A stretch of DNA of 64,000 nt from Thermococcus barossii. GTDB taxonomy: Archaea > Methanobacteriota_B > Thermococci > Thermococcales > Thermococcaceae. Positions within the stretch are counted from its first letter, which is position 1. Every line of letters starts with the position of its first letter. The notes under the pieces were generated by a model, which made no database searches, had not been told where the DNA came from, and saw only the letters and a list, made by a program, of their open reading frames with translations. Positions 3,690 through 46,941 of the stretch are shown here, in pieces. The stretch covers positions 1,123,013 to 1,187,012 of the forward strand of contig NZ_CP015101.1 of the NCBI RefSeq assembly GCF_002214465.1, in the 5' to 3' direction. Made by a program: the position numbers and the translations under genes.

Positions 3690-6600
3690 TCACCCGCCCA
3701 GGTGGCCGAACATCTCGGCGTGCTCGGCCTCGCTCCTCTTTCTGGCCTCTTCGAGTATCTTCATGGCCTTCTCAAGGCTCAGTGCAACGACGCGGGAGAC
3801 GCCGTTCCTCATGCTGACCCCGATTATCTTGTCCGCGTTCGCCATCATGACGTCCCTGAGTGTAATCACGATGAACTGGCTGTTCTGGGAGGCCTCCTTG
3901 ATGAGGTCGGCGACGCGCTTGACGTTGGCGTCGTCGAGGTGTGCATCGATCTCGTCGAAGAGGTAGAAGGGAGCCGGCTTGTAGCGCTGTATGGCGAAGA
4001 CAAAGGCCAAAGCCGTTAAAGCTTTCTCACCGCCGCTCATGGCCTCTATCCTCTTGACGTCCTTTCCAGCGGGCTTGGCCTCTATCTCAAGACCTCCGGC
4101 GAATGGGTCATCCGGGTTCTCAAGGATGAGCCTCGCACTCCCGCCCGGAGAGAGCTTGGCAAAAAGCTCGGAGAAGTTCCTGGCTATCTCGTTGAGGGTC
4201 TGCATGAAGACGTTCCTCTTCTGGCCCTCTATCTCCTCGATGAACTCCTCTATGCTCTCCTTCTCAGCGACGACCTGCTCGCGCTTGCTCTTCAGCTCAA
4301 GGTAGCGTCTCTCAACGACCTCGAAGTCTTCTATGGCCTTCATGTTCACCGGTTCGAGGGAGCGTATCTCCTCCTCCATCTTCTCTATCTGCTCCCTCAG
4401 GGCTTCGAGCTCCAGCGGCACTTCCTTGATGCTCCGAATTAGCTTGGCGTCGTGGTGCTTGAGCTCGTCCTGCTTCTCCTTCAGCGTTGCCTCGTACTGG
4501 GCGAGCTTTATCTTGAGGGTGTTGGCTTCAATGCGGAGCTCCTGGAGCTTGGAGTTGAGCTCGTCCTTCTCCGAGCGAAGGTCTATTATCTCGTTCCTAA
4601 CCTTCTCGCGCCTCTCGCGGAGCTCCTTAAGTTCGTCCTTCACACTCTCCTCGGCCTTTCTGAGCTTCTCCAGCTCCTTCTCGAACTCCTCTATGGCCTT
4701 CTCGTTCTCGGCGATGTTTGCCTTGAGGGCGTTTATCCTGTTCACCAGCCCCTCAATCTCCTCCTCAAGGTCGGCCTTCCTCGGGAGAAGTTCCTCGTTT
4801 ATCCTTATCTCAAGGTTCTCAAGCTTGCTCTCAACCTTGCTCAGCTCCTCCCTCAGCTTGCTTATCTCGTGCTCCACTTCCCTAATCTTCTGGTTTAGCT
4901 CCCTTGCTTCGGGGTTCTCAAGGGCCTTCTTGAGCCTCTCCTTCTTCTTTTCGAGGCGCTCTATCCTTCCGCGGAGCTTCGCCATATCGCCCTTCGTCCC
5001 GTGAATCCTCTTCTCAAGAACCTCAATGAGCCTCTCGCTCTCTTCAATTTCCTCCTTAAGGGCCTTATCCTCTGAGAGAAGGCGCTCCATCTCCCTCTGA
5101 ACCACCTGAAGGTCCTTGCTCAGGTCGCTCTTTTTCATGCGGAGCTCAAAAAGCTCGTTCTGAAGTCCCTTAACCTCAAGCTTGAGGGCGTTGATTGACG
5201 ACTCCAGAGCTTCCTTCTCGCGTTCGAGCTTTTCCACACGCTTCCTTATCTCATCGACGTTTATCCCGAGTTTGCCCCTTGGCCTGTAGTGGCCACCGGT
5301 TATGGCACCGCTCCTCTCAAGGAGCTCGCCGCTAAGGGTCACCATGCGGACCTTTCCAATCCCTACGGTTCTGGCCTCGTCCATATCGCTCACGATGAGC
5401 GTGTCGCCGAGGGCATAGGCGACGGCGTTCTTAAAGCGCGGGTCGTACTGGACGACGTCCATCGCCGGAATCCCGAGGGAAGGCTTCTCGCGCATCGAAC
5501 GTGGCTTAATCTTATTTAGCGGGAGAAAAGTTAGCCTTCCGAGCTTCTTCTCCTTGAGGAGCTTGATGGCCTTCTCGGCGACTTTGTCATCCTCGACGAC
5601 AACGTTGTCGTAGTTTCCACCGAGGGCAACCTCAACGGCGAGAGCATAGCCATTGTCCGCAACGGTTATCAGCTCACCGAGGGGACCGTAGAGACCGGGG
5701 ATGTTCTGGCTCTTGAGGAACTCAACCGCGCGGTTTCCACGAACCTCACGCTGGGCTTCGGCCTTTATCAGCTCCTCCCTGGCCTTTGCAAGCTCGCCCT
5801 CGACCTTTCTGAGGGCTTTGCTCTTCTCCTCAAGCTCCTTTTCAGCCTTCCTGAGCCTTGCCTCGGCCTTTGACATCTTCCCGTCTATCTCTCCCAGCTC
5901 GGAGCGCTTTGCCTCAAGGGATTTCCTGGCATCATCTATTTTCGACTTGAGGGCAGTTCTCCTGGCATTATCCTGGGCAATCTTGCCTTTGAGACGCTCT
6001 ATCTCCTCCTCGAACTTCTTAATATCGCTCTCCTTCATGTAGAGCTCCTTCTTGGCCTCCTCCAGCTCGTCAACGACCTTGTCGAAGTCCTGCTTGGCTA
6101 TGGCAAAATCCCTGTCAATCTCACCGAGCTTGACCACCAGCTCGTTTTTGATGACCTCTTTTTCCTTTATCTCCGCCTTGAGCTTCTCGCGCCTCTTGCT
6201 CCAGCGCTGAATGGCATTCCTGCTCTTCTCGATTTCCTCCGAGACCTTTTTGAGCTCCTCTTTCGTCTTAGCCAGCCTGTGCTGGCTGTCCTCTATCTCC
6301 TTCTGAGCCAGCTCGATGTTCTTCTTCGCCATTTCGATCTTCGACTGAACCTCGCTGATCTTTCTCGTGACCTCCAGGATACCGTCCTCGCTCTTTTCCT
6401 CAAGCTCCTTTTCGATGGCGTTCAGTTCCTTCTCCTTGGCGACTATCTCCTTGGCTATGTCCTTGAGGCGCTCCTCTATGGCGGCTATCTCCGCCTCTAT
6501 CTCCTTGTCGCGGAGGTTGTTCTCCTCAATCAGGGACTTGAGCTTCCTTATCTCGCCCAGGAGGAGGGTAACCCTGGCCCTTTCAACGCGCTCCTTGAGG

Positions 6601-40553: not shown

Positions 40554-40662
40554 AACTACACCTCCGGGGATTATCATGATGCCTGTTGATGCTTTGGCTA
40601 TCCTTTTTTAAGCTTTTTTGTGGGGTTTTGGGGTTTCAACATCAGATTAAAAAGATTAAAGA

Positions 40663-42036
40663 TTATGTGGTTCTTTTAGGGATTATGTTGTATTCAACTA
40701 TAATGCTAGATTGAGCACCTTGGGTATGACTATTGTTAGATGCGAGCGTTGCATAAATAACATCCAAATTTTTTACTATTAAGTTTCCTTTATTTTCAAG
40801 ATCTAAGAAGGTATCCCTGATGAATAATAGTTTCTTCCGTTCACATTCATCATGGGTATTAAGTTGACGAGTAAATGGAATTTTCGTGAACTCATGGAAT
40901 GTATCCTGAAACAAAAGCCTATTAAAAAGATCATTGCAATCATTATCATTATTTTGACGGTTTATGCAGATATCAGTTTCAAATCGATGATATCGTGAAT
41001 ATGCTATTTCAAAAACTTCCCCAAGAGTATACGTAAACAATAAGCAACTTAGTTTTTCTTTTTTTAGTTTTTCTTTTTGTAACATTTTTTTATCTCTAGA
41101 TTTATCTTCAGATTTATCTTCCCAAATGTACAAAGAGTCAAAGATTGCAGAAAGGTATTCTAGAAGATCTTTTGGACTTGTTGTATTAAGTATAGGTCGA
41201 TCACGCTCCTTATTCCATTTACATGTCTTCAATGTTATACTGATATTCAACTTATGTAACAATTCCCTATTTTTCCGTTCACGAATATAAGCTCTTACAA
41301 AAACAAACCCAAGTTCAAAAAACAGTATTACAAGTACAACCACAAAAATCTGTAAAATCGTACGATCGTACATAATTTGGTTACCATTCAAGAACACAGA
41401 CAAAGTGATTCCTGAAAACATCGAACTACTAATTGCCACAAATGTCGTCAATAAACATAGTCGTAGCATTCGAATAATGTATCTCCTGGACCCCCACTGA
41501 GATCCTAACATTGGAACTATTAGTTCGTAAAAAATAACAAACTTAACCATATTTAATATGTCTCTATCTACCATTATCCAATATGCATAACATACCATAG
41601 AAAAAATAATAAGAAACAAAATCCACGCCTCTACTCTGGAATATCCGTCTGAGGGCATTAATGCAATAAAAAATAACAGATATACCACTAAGTATATTGT
41701 TTTTCTGTAATTTACTAATGACAAATATTGCTTGAACCCTATAACTCTTACCGTTACTAGTGTATGCAGACTCCATTGCAGAAGTGAGTATGATACTATC
41801 AGGAGAGTTATTAATCTAAGTCGGAAATCTATCCAAGAATCCACATTCGGATACAATCTGCCTAGTAATGATGGGGCACTATGAGATGCATTTAGTATTA
41901 TGCCAATAATTATGCTAAATGTTACGATTGCACCATAAGTGATTTCCAGAAAAGAAATATCTTCATGCAACCCCTGGCTGTTTTTTATTATATTGTTAAC
42001 AATTGTATTAAGAGTCTCACTCTGTGCGTTCCCCAT
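40663..42036 (-). CDS. Island gene 4: multi-TM protein with cytosolic domain, 457 aa
   Basis: No family recognised. Six or seven predicted TM segments in the first ~250 residues (e.g. YGAIVTFSIIIGIILNAS, TIYLVVYLLFFIALMP, AWILFLIIFSMVCYAYWIMV, ILQIFVVVLVILFFELGFVFV), then ~200 soluble residues with a charged Lys/Glu/Asp segment (EDKSEDKSRDKKMLQKEKLKKEK in part). ATG 42036 lies 4 nt after AGGTGAT, whose GTG at 42045 also overlaps the preceding stop. Codon and base composition is A+T-rich, unlike the chromosome. Last gene of the operon. Confidence 0.82.
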   Translation of the reverse strand: MGNAQSETLNTIVNNIIKNSQGLHEDISFLEITYGAIVTFSIIIGIILNASHSAPSLLGRLYPNVDSWIDFRLRLITLLIVSYSLLQWSLHTLVTVRVIGFKQYLSLVNYRKTIYLVVYLLFFIALMPSDGYSRVEAWILFLIIFSMVCYAYWIMVDRDILNMVKFVIFYELIVPMLGSQWGSRRYIIRMLRLCLLTTFVAISSSMFSGITLSVFLNGNQIMYDRTILQIFVVVLVILFFELGFVFVRAYIRERKNRELLHKLNISITLKTCKWNKERDRPILNTTSPKDLLEYLSAIFDSLYIWEDKSEDKSRDKKMLQKEKLKKEKLSCLLFTYTLGEVFEIAYSRYHRFETDICINRQNNDNDCNDLFNRLLFQDTFHEFTKIPFTRQLNTHDECERKKLLFIRDTFLDLENKGNLIVKNLDVIYATLASNNSHTQGAQSSIIVEYNIIPKRTT

Positions 42037-42041
42037 AATAA

Positions 42042-43139
42042 TCACCTAAAATTGACTTGTGGAATAAAACTACGCACAATATAACACGGGTAATATTCGC
42101 AAGTATGGGTCCAATGCATAATGTACAGTTTAGAAATAATATTCTTCCCATTTAGTTCGTCTTGTAAGAAACATCCTAAAAATTCATCCTGTATGCTATT
42201 GTTTTGACGTTGTCCCCATTTTTCTAGAACTGTTTCCAAGTACTCAGAAACAAATTTTTCGTATCCTTCCGAAACATAATGAGTAGTAATAACAACTGCA
42301 TTAATCAAATGAGTAGTGTTGAAAGAATCTGAGTTTTTAACTTCCCCTATAAGCTCAATCAGAGTATTGGATCTAGAATAACAACCATGGTCCCTAATGT
42401 AGGTAATGTCAATGTTATAATTAGTGTCCGGGGGGTTATTGAAGCGCTCACCTTTTCCCTTTTCTTTTTCTGGATAATAGGCCAATGGACACGTTCCCAT
42501 TTTAGGACAAGAAGTACCCTCTGTACTACCATAATGAAGTTTGGCTAGTTTAGCATGTAAGTATTCTTCAACAGATTCTCTACTACCTGAAGTTTCCGGA
42601 ACAATTAGAAGATATTTCCGTATAGTACTTGCTCTTATTGGAATGCCCACTTTTTTGTTTTTATTTTCAATTTTCACATCTACAATTAGATTATCAAGCA
42701 GCTCTGAGATAGCTTTTATTACGTTTATTTTTGTTAAGCATGCAGTAACCTCAAATGTAGCAATAACTTCAAGTTGCTGTTGATTTGAGACACTCATTTT
42801 AGAGCTATTAGGATTCACAGGATATTCAATTTTTCCCGTCCTTTCTTTTAGTTTAACAAGTTCAATAATTGCATGAAAGTTTATACGTGGTTTTATTGTC
42901 ATAAGAGGGTGTGTTGGGAAATTTAATAAGCCAGAACTAGGAGAGGCAAAACGTTCACAAGTTTCAACGGTAGTGTATTTAATATTCAAAAGATAATCAA
43001 ATTTTTTCGAGCGTTCTGTTTCAGTCTCTAGTTGAACTCCATGAAGTGTTTTAAGGGTTGTATATAATGCACCGGGAATATCATCCACACACATGAATAG
43101 TCTAAATTTGCTTTTGAAGTTATCAGTCCCATCTGACAA
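42042..43139 (-). CDS. Island gene 3: soluble protein, 365 aa, unknown
   Basis: No recognised family and no TM segment. The first 38 residues (FRLFMCVDDIPGALYTTLKTL) resemble an ACT-domain start (DxPGALxxxxxxL), a small-molecule-binding fold; this is a suggestion only. Nine Cys, including C211-x5-C217 and C253, could form a metal site. TTG start at 43139 overlaps the end of the 616-aa gene; GAGAGGGGG lies ~10 nt upstream. A+T-rich. Probably a partner or regulator of the two membrane proteins that flank it. Confidence 0.8.
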   Translation of the reverse strand: MSDGTDNFKSKFRLFMCVDDIPGALYTTLKTLHGVQLETETERSKKFDYLLNIKYTTVETCERFASPSSGLLNFPTHPLMTIKPRINFHAIIELVKLKERTGKIEYPVNPNSSKMSVSNQQQLEVIATFEVTACLTKINVIKAISELLDNLIVDVKIENKNKKVGIPIRASTIRKYLLIVPETSGSRESVEEYLHAKLAKLHYGSTEGTSCPKMGTCPLAYYPEKEKGKGERFNNPPDTNYNIDITYIRDHGCYSRSNTLIELIGEVKNSDSFNTTHLINAVVITTHYVSEGYEKFVSEYLETVLEKWGQRQNNSIQDEFLGCFLQDELNGKNIISKLYIMHWTHTCEYYPCYIVRSFIPQVNFR

Positions 43140-44973
43140 AGTTAGAAACCCCCTCTCGTATGGTTTTGTATGGGTGGAACAGATGAACTCTATTCAGATC
43201 TATCCCGTTTCTGTAAGCACTCTCTAGTAATCGTTCAAGCTCATTTCTGAAAAAATATGGAGCAATTATCCAATAGTCTTCTGTATATCCAGACAAAGCC
43301 TTAAAAACTTCTAAACATAGTGACTCAGAGATGCCTTCTTTTCCGATGATGACAAATATTGGCACAATTTTGCGGGATTCCCTACTGGTTTTATTCAAGG
43401 TTTGGACTATATTACATAAATGCTTAATGACTCTAAACGTGACTTCTGGAAGCACATATACAGTAGCAACTTTTTTAAATCCTCTTTGTCTGTCATGTCT
43501 AATTGGTAAATAATACTCAATTAATCTCTTTCTTATGAACTCGTTATCAATACTATTTTCTTTAAAAATCTCGTTCAGGATTTTCAAAGAATTATTTTCT
43601 TTATCACAGTCTAGTTCTAAAGGGCTAGAGTTTTCTTTTATAAAGTTGTCACTTGATATAACAATAATATTCTTTAGGAACTCGTGAGCACATTTTTCAT
43701 CCGTTCTCTTTGCCTCCCCGTTATCTATGGCAGCATCTTGCACTTTTTCTTCACTTGATCTTCCCCTCTCCAAACGAGGGAGCAATTCTTCGACTAGTTT
43801 GTCCCAAGCTTTTAGAGCATAATACACCTCCGGCCCGTTACCTATTAAAAAGATAATGTAACTTTGTCCTTTCCAGAATGTTTCAGACAACGCTGCATAT
43901 AATCGTCTTAATAGCAAAGTGCCTAGCTCGAAGGGAGGATAAAACCTGAGGGCTTTACCTGTTTCATCTTTTTCAGAAATCTCTGAATAGGAAGTAGAAA
44001 CCGAAGACCTAATAACGACAGTAGTTAGAGTTTGTCTTTGTAGAAGATAACTTTCTGTCTCTTTATTTTTAAACGTTTGTATAACTGCTTTTGCCCTTTC
44101 AAAGTTTAATAACTTCCAAGTGTTATCACTTTTTAAGTCAGATCCCACAATAGGAACAAATACCCGATCTCCCCATGTGGGAATTATCGCCTCAAGTCCG
44201 AGTGATTTAAAGTATGGGTCCTCCAATTTATAATCCCATTTATCCGTATTTGGGTCTAATATAACCAAGAAAGGGAATAATTTTTCCAATTTTAGCTTAG
44301 TGCCGTCGAATATCCAAACCCAGTACATTTTCCATTTTTCATTATCCATAGATCCTATATAGAGCATTTGTAAGAGTCTTTCGGCTAGTCGTTGTCCAAT
44401 ATTCCCATATCCCCCTATAACTATATGGCTTCTTAGCTTTGGCAATATTGTCGATGTTCTTGAAATAACTTTAGTTATGTGAATTTTGGAATAATCTTTT
44501 GAAATCTCGAGAGTCTTTTCAATAAACATAACCAGAAATCCTGCAGAGAATATTACGACTGCCAATATTTCTTTAATATCGCTGTTTGGAACTGTTAATG
44601 ATTTTAAGCCATTTAAAAATAAGACATCTGCAAGAATTGGGGATGATAATATGAAAATAACAATCCCTAAAAGTGGAGAAGAACGAGATGTTTCTAACAT
44701 TTCGAGAAATGGAACACTAATAAGAACATGATGCTCTCTTTGTTTAAGATAAAAAAGAAGCAAAACTACGATTATCCAAGTCATTGTATAATATTCTATA
44801 AGAACTACACGAGCTAAATATGCAAGATATCCCCCTATTAACACAGTTATGAACACTATACCCTCTAAGGAGAGATAGATAATGGGAGCAATAAAACTCG
44901 CCTTTTTATAAATCTCATGCATCACAACAAAACATACAACGGCAAATAGAATAATAAAGAATGGGGAGAACAA
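43123..44973 (-). CDS. Island gene 2: membrane protein with tandem RCK/TrkA-N-like domains, 616 aa
   Basis: Four or five TM segments in residues 1-155. Then LRSHIVIGGYGNIGQRLAERLL (Rossmann GxGxxG at 187-193) and VFVPIVGSDLKSDNTWKLLNFERAKAVIQTF in pieces (270-301), the G-D/S-x-L...A-x-x-V pattern of RCK_N/TrkA-N. A second Rossmann-like start IIFLIGNGPEVYYAL is at 373-387. Such domains gate K+ channels on binding NAD(H), ADP or ions. The canonical TxGYG filter is absent. TTG start, GGAGGGGGAT upstream. Not a known channel by eye. Confidence 0.82.
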   Translation of the reverse strand: MFSPFFIILFAVVCFVVMHEIYKKASFIAPIIYLSLEGIVFITVLIGGYLAYLARVVLIEYYTMTWIIVVLLLFYLKQREHHVLISVPFLEMLETSRSSPLLGIVIFILSSPILADVLFLNGLKSLTVPNSDIKEILAVVIFSAGFLVMFIEKTLEISKDYSKIHITKVISRTSTILPKLRSHIVIGGYGNIGQRLAERLLQMLYIGSMDNEKWKMYWVWIFDGTKLKLEKLFPFLVILDPNTDKWDYKLEDPYFKSLGLEAIIPTWGDRVFVPIVGSDLKSDNTWKLLNFERAKAVIQTFKNKETESYLLQRQTLTTVVIRSSVSTSYSEISEKDETGKALRFYPPFELGTLLLRRLYAALSETFWKGQSYIIFLIGNGPEVYYALKAWDKLVEELLPRLERGRSSEEKVQDAAIDNGEAKRTDEKCAHEFLKNIIVISSDNFIKENSSPLELDCDKENNSLKILNEIFKENSIDNEFIRKRLIEYYLPIRHDRQRGFKKVATVYVLPEVTFRVIKHLCNIVQTLNKTSRESRKIVPIFVIIGKEGISESLCLEVFKALSGYTEDYWIIAPYFFRNELERLLESAYRNGIDLNRVHLFHPYKTIREGVSNFVRWD

Positions 44974-44987
44974 AGACTATCCCCCTC

Positions 44988-45134
44988 CTAATACAAGATT
45001 AGATTCCCCCTATGAGCATCTTCTTTACGGCCAATCCCTGTATAGCTCCTGCTCCGATGAATATACTCCATCACTATCACTCCTACTAAAATAAAAACAA
45101 CAAACCCATTTACAAGGAGCGCTCCTATGTCCAT
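44988..45134 (-). CDS. Island gene 1: 48-aa single-TM protein
   Basis: MDIGALLVNGFVVFILVGVI then a charged tail YIHRSRSYTG and RKEDAHRGNL. One TM helix at residues ~5-24. Perfect ribosome-binding site GGAGGAGG with 5 nt spacing. Ends 15 nt before the TTG of the 616-aa gene. First gene of the island operon, with the promoter at 45201-45210. Small TM proteins commonly assist or anchor larger membrane complexes; function here is unknown. Confidence 0.72.
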   Translation of the reverse strand: MDIGALLVNGFVVFILVGVIVMEYIHRSRSYTGIGRKEDAHRGNLILY

Positions 45135-45200
45135 GTGTGCCTCCTCCTGAACCCTGAAATCAGGTTAAAGGGTAATTTACACATCACTCTCTGCAAAGGG

Positions 45201-45210
45201 GATATATAAC
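45201..45210 (-). promoter_or_regulatory. Island operon TATA box
   Basis: GTTATATATC on the minus strand, followed ~60 nt later by the GGAGGAGG ribosome-binding site of island gene 1. Lies in the 118-nt gap between island and mutase large-subunit gene; a leader of 40 nt or so would result. Unlike many neighbours this transcript is leadered. Confidence 0.6.
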
Positions 45211-45252
45211 ATTTGCGGTCACAGATAAACGAAAAGTTAGAATTTTAGAAAG

Positions 45253-46941
45253 TTAGAATATCAGCGGCGCCCTGTACTCGCCCCAGACCTCGCGCAGGAC
45301 GTCGGTGACCTCTCCAAGGGTCGCGAGGTGCCTGTGGGCCTCGATGATGTAGGGCATGAGGTTCTCGTCCTCGCTCTCGGCTGCCTTCCTGAGCTTATCA
45401 AGGGCCTCCTCGACCTTCTTGCTGTCGCGCTCGCTCCTCAGCTTCTTGAGCCTCTCGATCTGCTTCTCCCTGATGCTCGGGTCGACCTTGAGTATCTCGA
45501 CGTCGAGCGGCTCGTCGACGATGAACTCGTTCACACCGACGATGATGCGCTTCTTCTCCTCGACCTCCTTCTGGTACTTGTAGGCTGACTCCGCTATCTC
45601 CTTCTGGATGTAGCCGCGCTCGATGGCCCTCATCATGCCGCCCATCTTCTGGATCTTCTCGATGTACTTGAGGGCCTCTTCGTAGATGTGGTCGGTGAGC
45701 CACTCGATGTAGTAGGAACCGCCGAGCGGGTCGATGGTGTCCACAACACCGCTCTCATAGGCTATTATCTGCTGGGTCCTGAGGGCTATCCTGACGCTCT
45801 TCTCGGTCGGAAGGGAAAGGGCCTCATCGTAGGAGTTGGTGTGAAGGCTCTGCGTCCCGCCGAGGACAGCGGCTAAGGCCTGAATGGCAACGCGGACGAT
45901 GTTGTTCTCAGGCTGCTGGGCGGTGAGCGTTGAGCCGGCCGTCTGGGTGTGGAAGCGCAGGAGCATCGAGCGCGGGTTCTTGGCGTTGAACCACTCCTTC
46001 ATTATATACGCCCATAGCCTTCTTGCTGCTCTAAACTTGGCTATCTCCTCAAGGAAGTTGTTGTGGGCGTTGAAGAAGAAGCTCAGCCTCCCGGCAAACT
46101 TGTCCACGTCCATACCCCTCTCTATGACTGCCTTGACGTACTCGATACCGTCGGCGAGGGTAAAAGCTACCTCCTGGACGGCGTTCGCGCCTGCCTCGCG
46201 GATGTGGTAGCCGCTTATGCTTATCGGGTTCCACTTGGGGACGTTCTCGGCACAGTACATTATGATGTCGGTCGTGAGGCGCATGCTCGGCTGCGGCGGG
46301 AAGATGTAGGTGCCGCGTGCTATGTACTCCTTGAGGATGTCGTTCTGAACCGTTCCGCGGAGCTGGTGGGGCTGGACCCCCTGCTCTTCAGCCACGAGGA
46401 TATACATGGCGAGCAGGTTGGCGGCCGTCGAGTTGATGGTCATGCTCGTTGAGACCTTGTCGAGCGGGATTCCATCGAAGAGTATGCGCATGTCCCAGAG
46501 GGAGTCAATGGCGACACCGACCTTTCCGACCTCACCCTCACTCATCGGGTGGTCGGAGTCGTAGCCTATCTGGGTGGGCAGGTCAAAGGCGACGCTCAGA
46601 CCGGTCTGACCCTGCTCAAGCAGGTACTTGTAGCGCCTGTTGCTCTCCTCAGCGGTTCCGAAGCCGGCGTACTGTCTCATCGTCCAGAACCTTCCGCGGT
46701 ACATGGTAGCGTAAACGCCCCTTGTGAAGGGATACTCACCGGGGAAGCCGAGCTTTTCAAGGTAGTCCCAGTCTTCCCCGAGGTCGGCGGGAGTGTAAAC
46801 GCGCTTTATCTCAAAACCGTCGTCTGTCATGAACTTCTCCTTTCTTTCGGGCCTCTTCTCAATGAACTTTTTAACGGTCGTTTCCTCCCAACGCTTCTCC
46901 TCCTCCCTAATCTTCGCGAGCTTCTCCTTATCGAAGGTCAT
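45253..46941 (-). CDS. Methylmalonyl-CoA mutase, substrate-binding subunit
   Basis: 562 aa TIM-barrel subunit (N-terminal, catalytic) of B12-dependent mutase. Motifs: [16 protein letters not shown], the [31 protein letters not shown] stretch in pieces, [64 protein letters not shown], and [28 protein letters not shown] (both quoted in part). The B12-binding subunit is encoded 36 kb away at 9323. ATG 46941 after GGTGGTAGGC; in-frame GTG at 46950. TATA ~46973-46982. Confidence 0.97.

Follow-up and report, generated by a model that had tools for sequence, protein, structure and literature searches.

A mobile four-gene cassette of membrane-associated proteins at an insertion hotspot in Thermococcus barossii

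The 64,000-nucleotide stretch of the Thermococcus barossii genome analysed here (contig NZ_CP015101.1, positions 1,123,013 to 1,187,012), referred to as the window, contains an island of four packed, co-directional genes on the minus strand. Gene 1 (44988..45134) starts with ATG and encodes 48 residues; gene 2 (43123..44973) and gene 3 (42042..43139) both start with TTG and encode 616 and 365 residues, respectively. Gene 4 (40663..42045) encodes 460 residues from a GTG, or 457 from an in-frame ATG three codons on, the start chosen in the preliminary description of this DNA. The assignments rest on the open reading frames, on hydropathy, and on a counterpart of each gene in a second genome (see below); the reading-frame check agreed with the coordinates, sizes and TTG starts given earlier. 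Genes 1 and 2 are separated by 14 nt, while genes 2 and 3 overlap by 17 nt and genes 3 and 4 by 4 nt. Reading of the sequence places a TATA-like box, TTATATAT, at about 45202-45209 on the minus strand, ~70 nt upstream of gene 1, and AGGAGGAGG precedes the gene 1 ATG. A TATA-like TTTATAA is also present upstream of gene 1 in the second copy. The element TTATATAT is probably the promoter of a four-gene operon, and the tight packing suggests that one promoter is common to all four genes. A sigma-70 promoter scan was run as well, a method that is not meaningful for archaea. Rfam and tRNA searches at the island gave no match.

The island is flanked by a gene matching the Pfam family MM_CoA_mutase on one side and by genes matching L39e, L31e and eIF6 on the other, confirming the position assigned in the preliminary description. 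The flanking promoters had also been described as intact; both flanking genes are whole, and the sequence just before L39e, which is common to empty sites, is retained. The base composition is unlike that of the flanks, with a GC content of 0.344 at 40620-45250 versus 0.556 in the remainder of the window. Overlapping 4.6-kb segments clear of the island (n = 250) have a mean GC of 0.555 with an SD of 0.016 and a minimum of 0.520, and the island therefore lies about 13 SD low. Third-position GC is 0.26-0.39 in the island genes, as against 0.75-0.82 in three flanking genes.

The extent of the insert was defined by comparison with the closest relative examined (G016), whose mutase is 99.6 % identical to that of the window. 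The blastn alignment of the two stops at 45255 and resumes at 40637; an insert of 4617 bp (40638..45254) thus takes the place of 36 bp of mutase-rpl39e intergenic DNA in G016. The break at 45255 coincides with the final codon bases of the mutase gene, the stop codon of which ends at 45253. The same gap (window 40578-45252) was surveyed in genomes in which the mutase gene and rpl39e were found close together (loci L078-L097). It is empty (about 90-260 bp) in 14 congeners and holds other cargo in 13 further genomes: a secreted-type protein of ~650 residues in 8 of the 13, one of which also carries an ABC-transporter-like set, an A+T-richer two-gene set in 3 and other sets in 2. Three of the cargo proteins were searched and have no Pfam family. 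Since the gap between the mutase gene and rpl39e carries different cargo in 13 genomes and is empty in 14, it is a hotspot for insertion. No words of eight or more bases are common to the two ends of the insert, in direct or inverted orientation, and searches for an integrase, a tRNA or end repeats were negative; entry by homologous recombination in the conserved flanks would be our guess.

The two-gene cargo sets (L079, L084 and L087) have a GC content of 0.43-0.45. Each pairs a ~365-aa protein that begins with a signal/TM segment with a variable protein of 480-637 residues, in which the C-terminal half is conserved and the N-terminal half differs; neither protein of the L087 set gave a Pfam match. 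At L090, an insert of about 4.9 kb (GC 0.43) holds a minus-strand run of small multi-TM proteins. Two of its ORFs open with the identical stretch SPIYWSTxE, which suggests duplicated units in the hotspot.

When 94 genomes of the family were searched in full, one other strong match emerged, in a genome of the same genus (G049). All four genes are present there in identical order (locus L017), at a genomic site unlike that of the window, so that the gene order proposed earlier as worth seeking elsewhere does recur. The counterparts encode 46, 599, 396 and 460 residues, start with ATG, TTG, TTG and GTG, and overlap from gene 2 to gene 4; the GC content of this copy is about 0.31-0.38. The two loci share only the four cassette genes. 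Identities between the copies are 37 % for gene 1, 47 % for gene 2, 43 % for gene 3 and 28 % for gene 4, which makes them old relatives rather than a recent duplicate; as two copies are known, all statements on conservation refer to this one pair. In all four genes divergence is greatest at third codon positions and least at second positions (third > first > second), and selection has therefore acted on the proteins. The second copy of the whole set, this pattern of divergence and the retained TTG/TTG/GTG starts together identify the four ORFs as real genes.

The second locus also has a natural empty counterpart. A genome with ~92 % identical DNA (G057) has 102 bp where G049 has 5.8 kb that includes the cassette; the alignment of G057 with L017 runs up to position 4727 and again from 10561. 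The four-gene unit is thus found at different loci, with close relatives empty at both, as expected for a mobile cassette, and from these empty sites the island in the window is a recent gain. Both of the outcomes that the preliminary description had named as support, recurrence of the set elsewhere and an empty site in relatives, were therefore observed. At L017 (4713-4729) the last cassette gene runs antisense into a short-chain dehydrogenase gene, with an overlap of 17 bp at the 3' end of the latter; the C-terminal residues of the cassette protein consequently lie in DNA that also belongs to this neighbouring host gene.

Strong matches to gene 2 occur in 2 of the 94 genomes of the family, and strong matches to genes 3 and 4, among 115 genomes searched across the phylum, likewise in 2, these being T. 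barossii itself and G049. Of the weaker matches to genes 2 and 3 in other genomes, those at the four loci inspected (L004, L006, L012 and L016) were rejected, as they lie antisense to an isoprenyl-synthetase-like gene, within an AAA ATPase, or in unrelated sequence. A scan for the pattern HTCEYxPC returned 27 loci, none of which clearly extended past the motif, and tblastn gave weak matches only. No relative of gene 2 was found by a close-homologue scan of GTDB genomes, and none of the cassette in plasmids, phages and viral contigs; pattern-based scans of this kind may overlook distant relatives. The preliminary description had recognised no family in most of these proteins, and Pfam, NCBIfam, PADLOC and PHROGs likewise gave no match over cut-off, in the case of PADLOC up to E = 1. 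Searches of solved structures with the cassette proteins returned chance matches only, and a literature search for RCK-type or conflict-system parallels found nothing specific. As far as these searches reach, the cassette appears to be new and undescribed.

Hydropathy gives gene 2 about five TM helices (residues 1-150). Next come a fingerprint of the GxGxxG dinucleotide-binding type, HIVIGGYGNIGQRLAERL, at residues 183-200, which is kept in the L017 homologue as HIVIGGYGNVG, and then a large soluble region; within this, a second alternating alpha/beta segment is predicted at about 350-600. The protein had been called RCK-like, and that label holds in part. Residues 184-202, covering the first beta-alpha-beta dinucleotide fingerprint, match TrkA_N (PF02254) at 17.1 bits, below the curated cut-off of 23.8, but the likeness could not be extended over the remaining RCK domain. 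In hhalign, RCK proteins from this genus align with gene 2 over the fingerprint only; hmmsearch with a 33-sequence RCK profile adds one weak collinear piece (gene 2 residues 282-307, model positions 55-80); and the region past the fingerprint is indistinguishable from shuffled sequences (p 0.22 and 0.37). Full RCK homology of gene 2 is therefore unsupported by any of the three. The AlphaFold model, made from a two-row alignment, is poor (mean pLDDT 44), with the C-terminal alpha/beta part at about 350-600 better than the remainder; Foldseek with this model gave no significant matches, and MthK RCK chains recur among the weak ones. The other AlphaFold model, also from a two-row alignment, has a mean pLDDT of 33 and, like the first, is too poor for use. 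The K+ selectivity filter T-[VI]-G-[YF]-G (TVGYG/TIGYG) is absent from the TM region of gene 2 in both copies, whereas the host's own RCK channel does carry it (TIGYGD); gene 2 is thus not an ordinary K+ channel. A dinucleotide-binding domain in gene 2 is probable.

The remaining proteins offer fewer landmarks. Gene 1 has a single TM segment at about residues 3-21 and a conserved tail, GxGRKEDxxxGxxIL. Gene 3 is soluble and contains the motifs CPKMGTCPL, YIRDHGCY and WTHTCEYYPCYIVRSF; these Cys/His motifs are invariant between the two copies, which suggests metal or redox binding. The N-terminus of gene 3 (VxDxPGxL) looks ACT-like by eye, a resemblance that Pfam, searched up to E = 10, does not bear out. 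In gene 4, about six TM helices precede a soluble C-terminal region, and this protein is the most variable of the four.

The four genes form a recurring, horizontally acquired unit, membrane-associated by hydropathy and kept by selection. Our main reading, held tentatively at a probability of roughly 0.4, is that they constitute an operon for one membrane complex in which gene 2 senses a dinucleotide and switches permeability or transport. RCK domains gate channels and transporters. Gene 2 would be the core, its TM helices joined to a cytoplasmic RCK/TrkA-N-like module that may sense NAD(H) or a similar nucleotide. As its membrane partners we propose genes 4 and 1, the three together forming the membrane part; gene 3 would be a soluble Cys/His-rich regulator, docking on gene 2 and adding a metal or redox signal. 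A change in ligand would then switch the complex, altering membrane permeability, conductance or transport. The patchy spread and the hotspot location suggest a conditional benefit, in stress or in virus defence; whether defence or ion/metal handling is the benefit is a choice that sequence alone cannot make.

One alternative, which we consider rather unlikely, is that the cassette encodes a niche transporter or channel of a metal, an ion or a small solute, with RCK-like and Cys-rich regulators, and is carried like any other accessory metabolic operon. Its layout would resemble that of multi-subunit transporters (two polytopic proteins, a small single-TM subunit and a cytoplasmic regulator), and the Cys/His motifs of gene 3 would fit; yet Pfam and NCBIfam contain no transporter family that matches, and the proteins lack a selectivity filter, an ATPase and any known transport motif. 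Also unlikely, by a similar weighing, is a virus-defence or abortive-infection module, in which infection would alter a nucleotide such as NAD or a signal nucleotide, gene 2 would sense the change, and the membrane parts would depolarise or permeabilise the cell. A defence role is plausible in that the cassette is patchy, horizontally moving and cargo of a hotspot, that it combines membrane proteins with a putative nucleotide sensor, and that membrane systems and defence are reported to be abundant in archaeal dark-matter islands (PMC4158269). Against it, PADLOC has no match, no nuclease, NADase or cyclase domain is present, no recognised defence genes are neighbours, and the hotspot cargo of other genomes is not recognisable as defence either. 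The bolder proposal of a new class of four-component immune or stress machine of hyperthermophilic archaea, in which a membrane protein that senses a dinucleotide would act with a cytoplasmic Cys/His-rich regulator to gate an unrelated pore in the membrane, is quite improbable on present evidence.

The cassette might instead be left over from an integrated virus or plasmid, its membrane proteins serving in structure or entry and not in a cellular system. Such an origin would account for an A+T-rich, foreign and recent insertion, but is very improbable, given that PHROGs, phages, plasmids and viral contigs yield no match, that no integrase, tRNA or replication gene is present, and that the two loci have just the four genes in common. 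Chance ORFs or decaying foreign DNA could be argued from the orphan sequence and unusual composition only; such an origin is hardly credible, being refuted by four intact homologues in identical order at another locus with coding-type divergence across codon positions.

The proposed membrane complex can be set beside two known groups. Like the RCK/TrkA-N (PF02254) channels and transporters MthK, TrkA and Kef, gene 2 has TM segments followed by a cytoplasmic start of the GxGxxG dinucleotide-binding type, and its poor model draws weak matches to the MthK RCK fold; unlike them, it scores below cut-off, lacks the K+ filter, has no detectable remainder of an RCK domain and is accompanied by orphan partners in a four-gene operon. 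The archaeal membrane dark-matter islands, in which membrane systems are over-represented and stress and conflict roles are predicted, are similarly lineage-specific, fast-evolving clusters of membrane-protein genes at variable genome sites (PMC4158269). The four-gene set was not found in the part of that work available, and the present case is one defined unit with demonstrated mobility and an empty site; the general picture fits the set but does not identify it (PMC4158269).

Four linked protein families without a named relative therefore move as one unit within the genus. Thermococcus is genetically tractable. As both insertion sites are precisely defined and strains with the empty site occur in nature, deleting or transferring the operon would test it directly. 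The mutase-rpl39e gap is itself a hotspot for accessory genes, and a place to seek other unknown systems.
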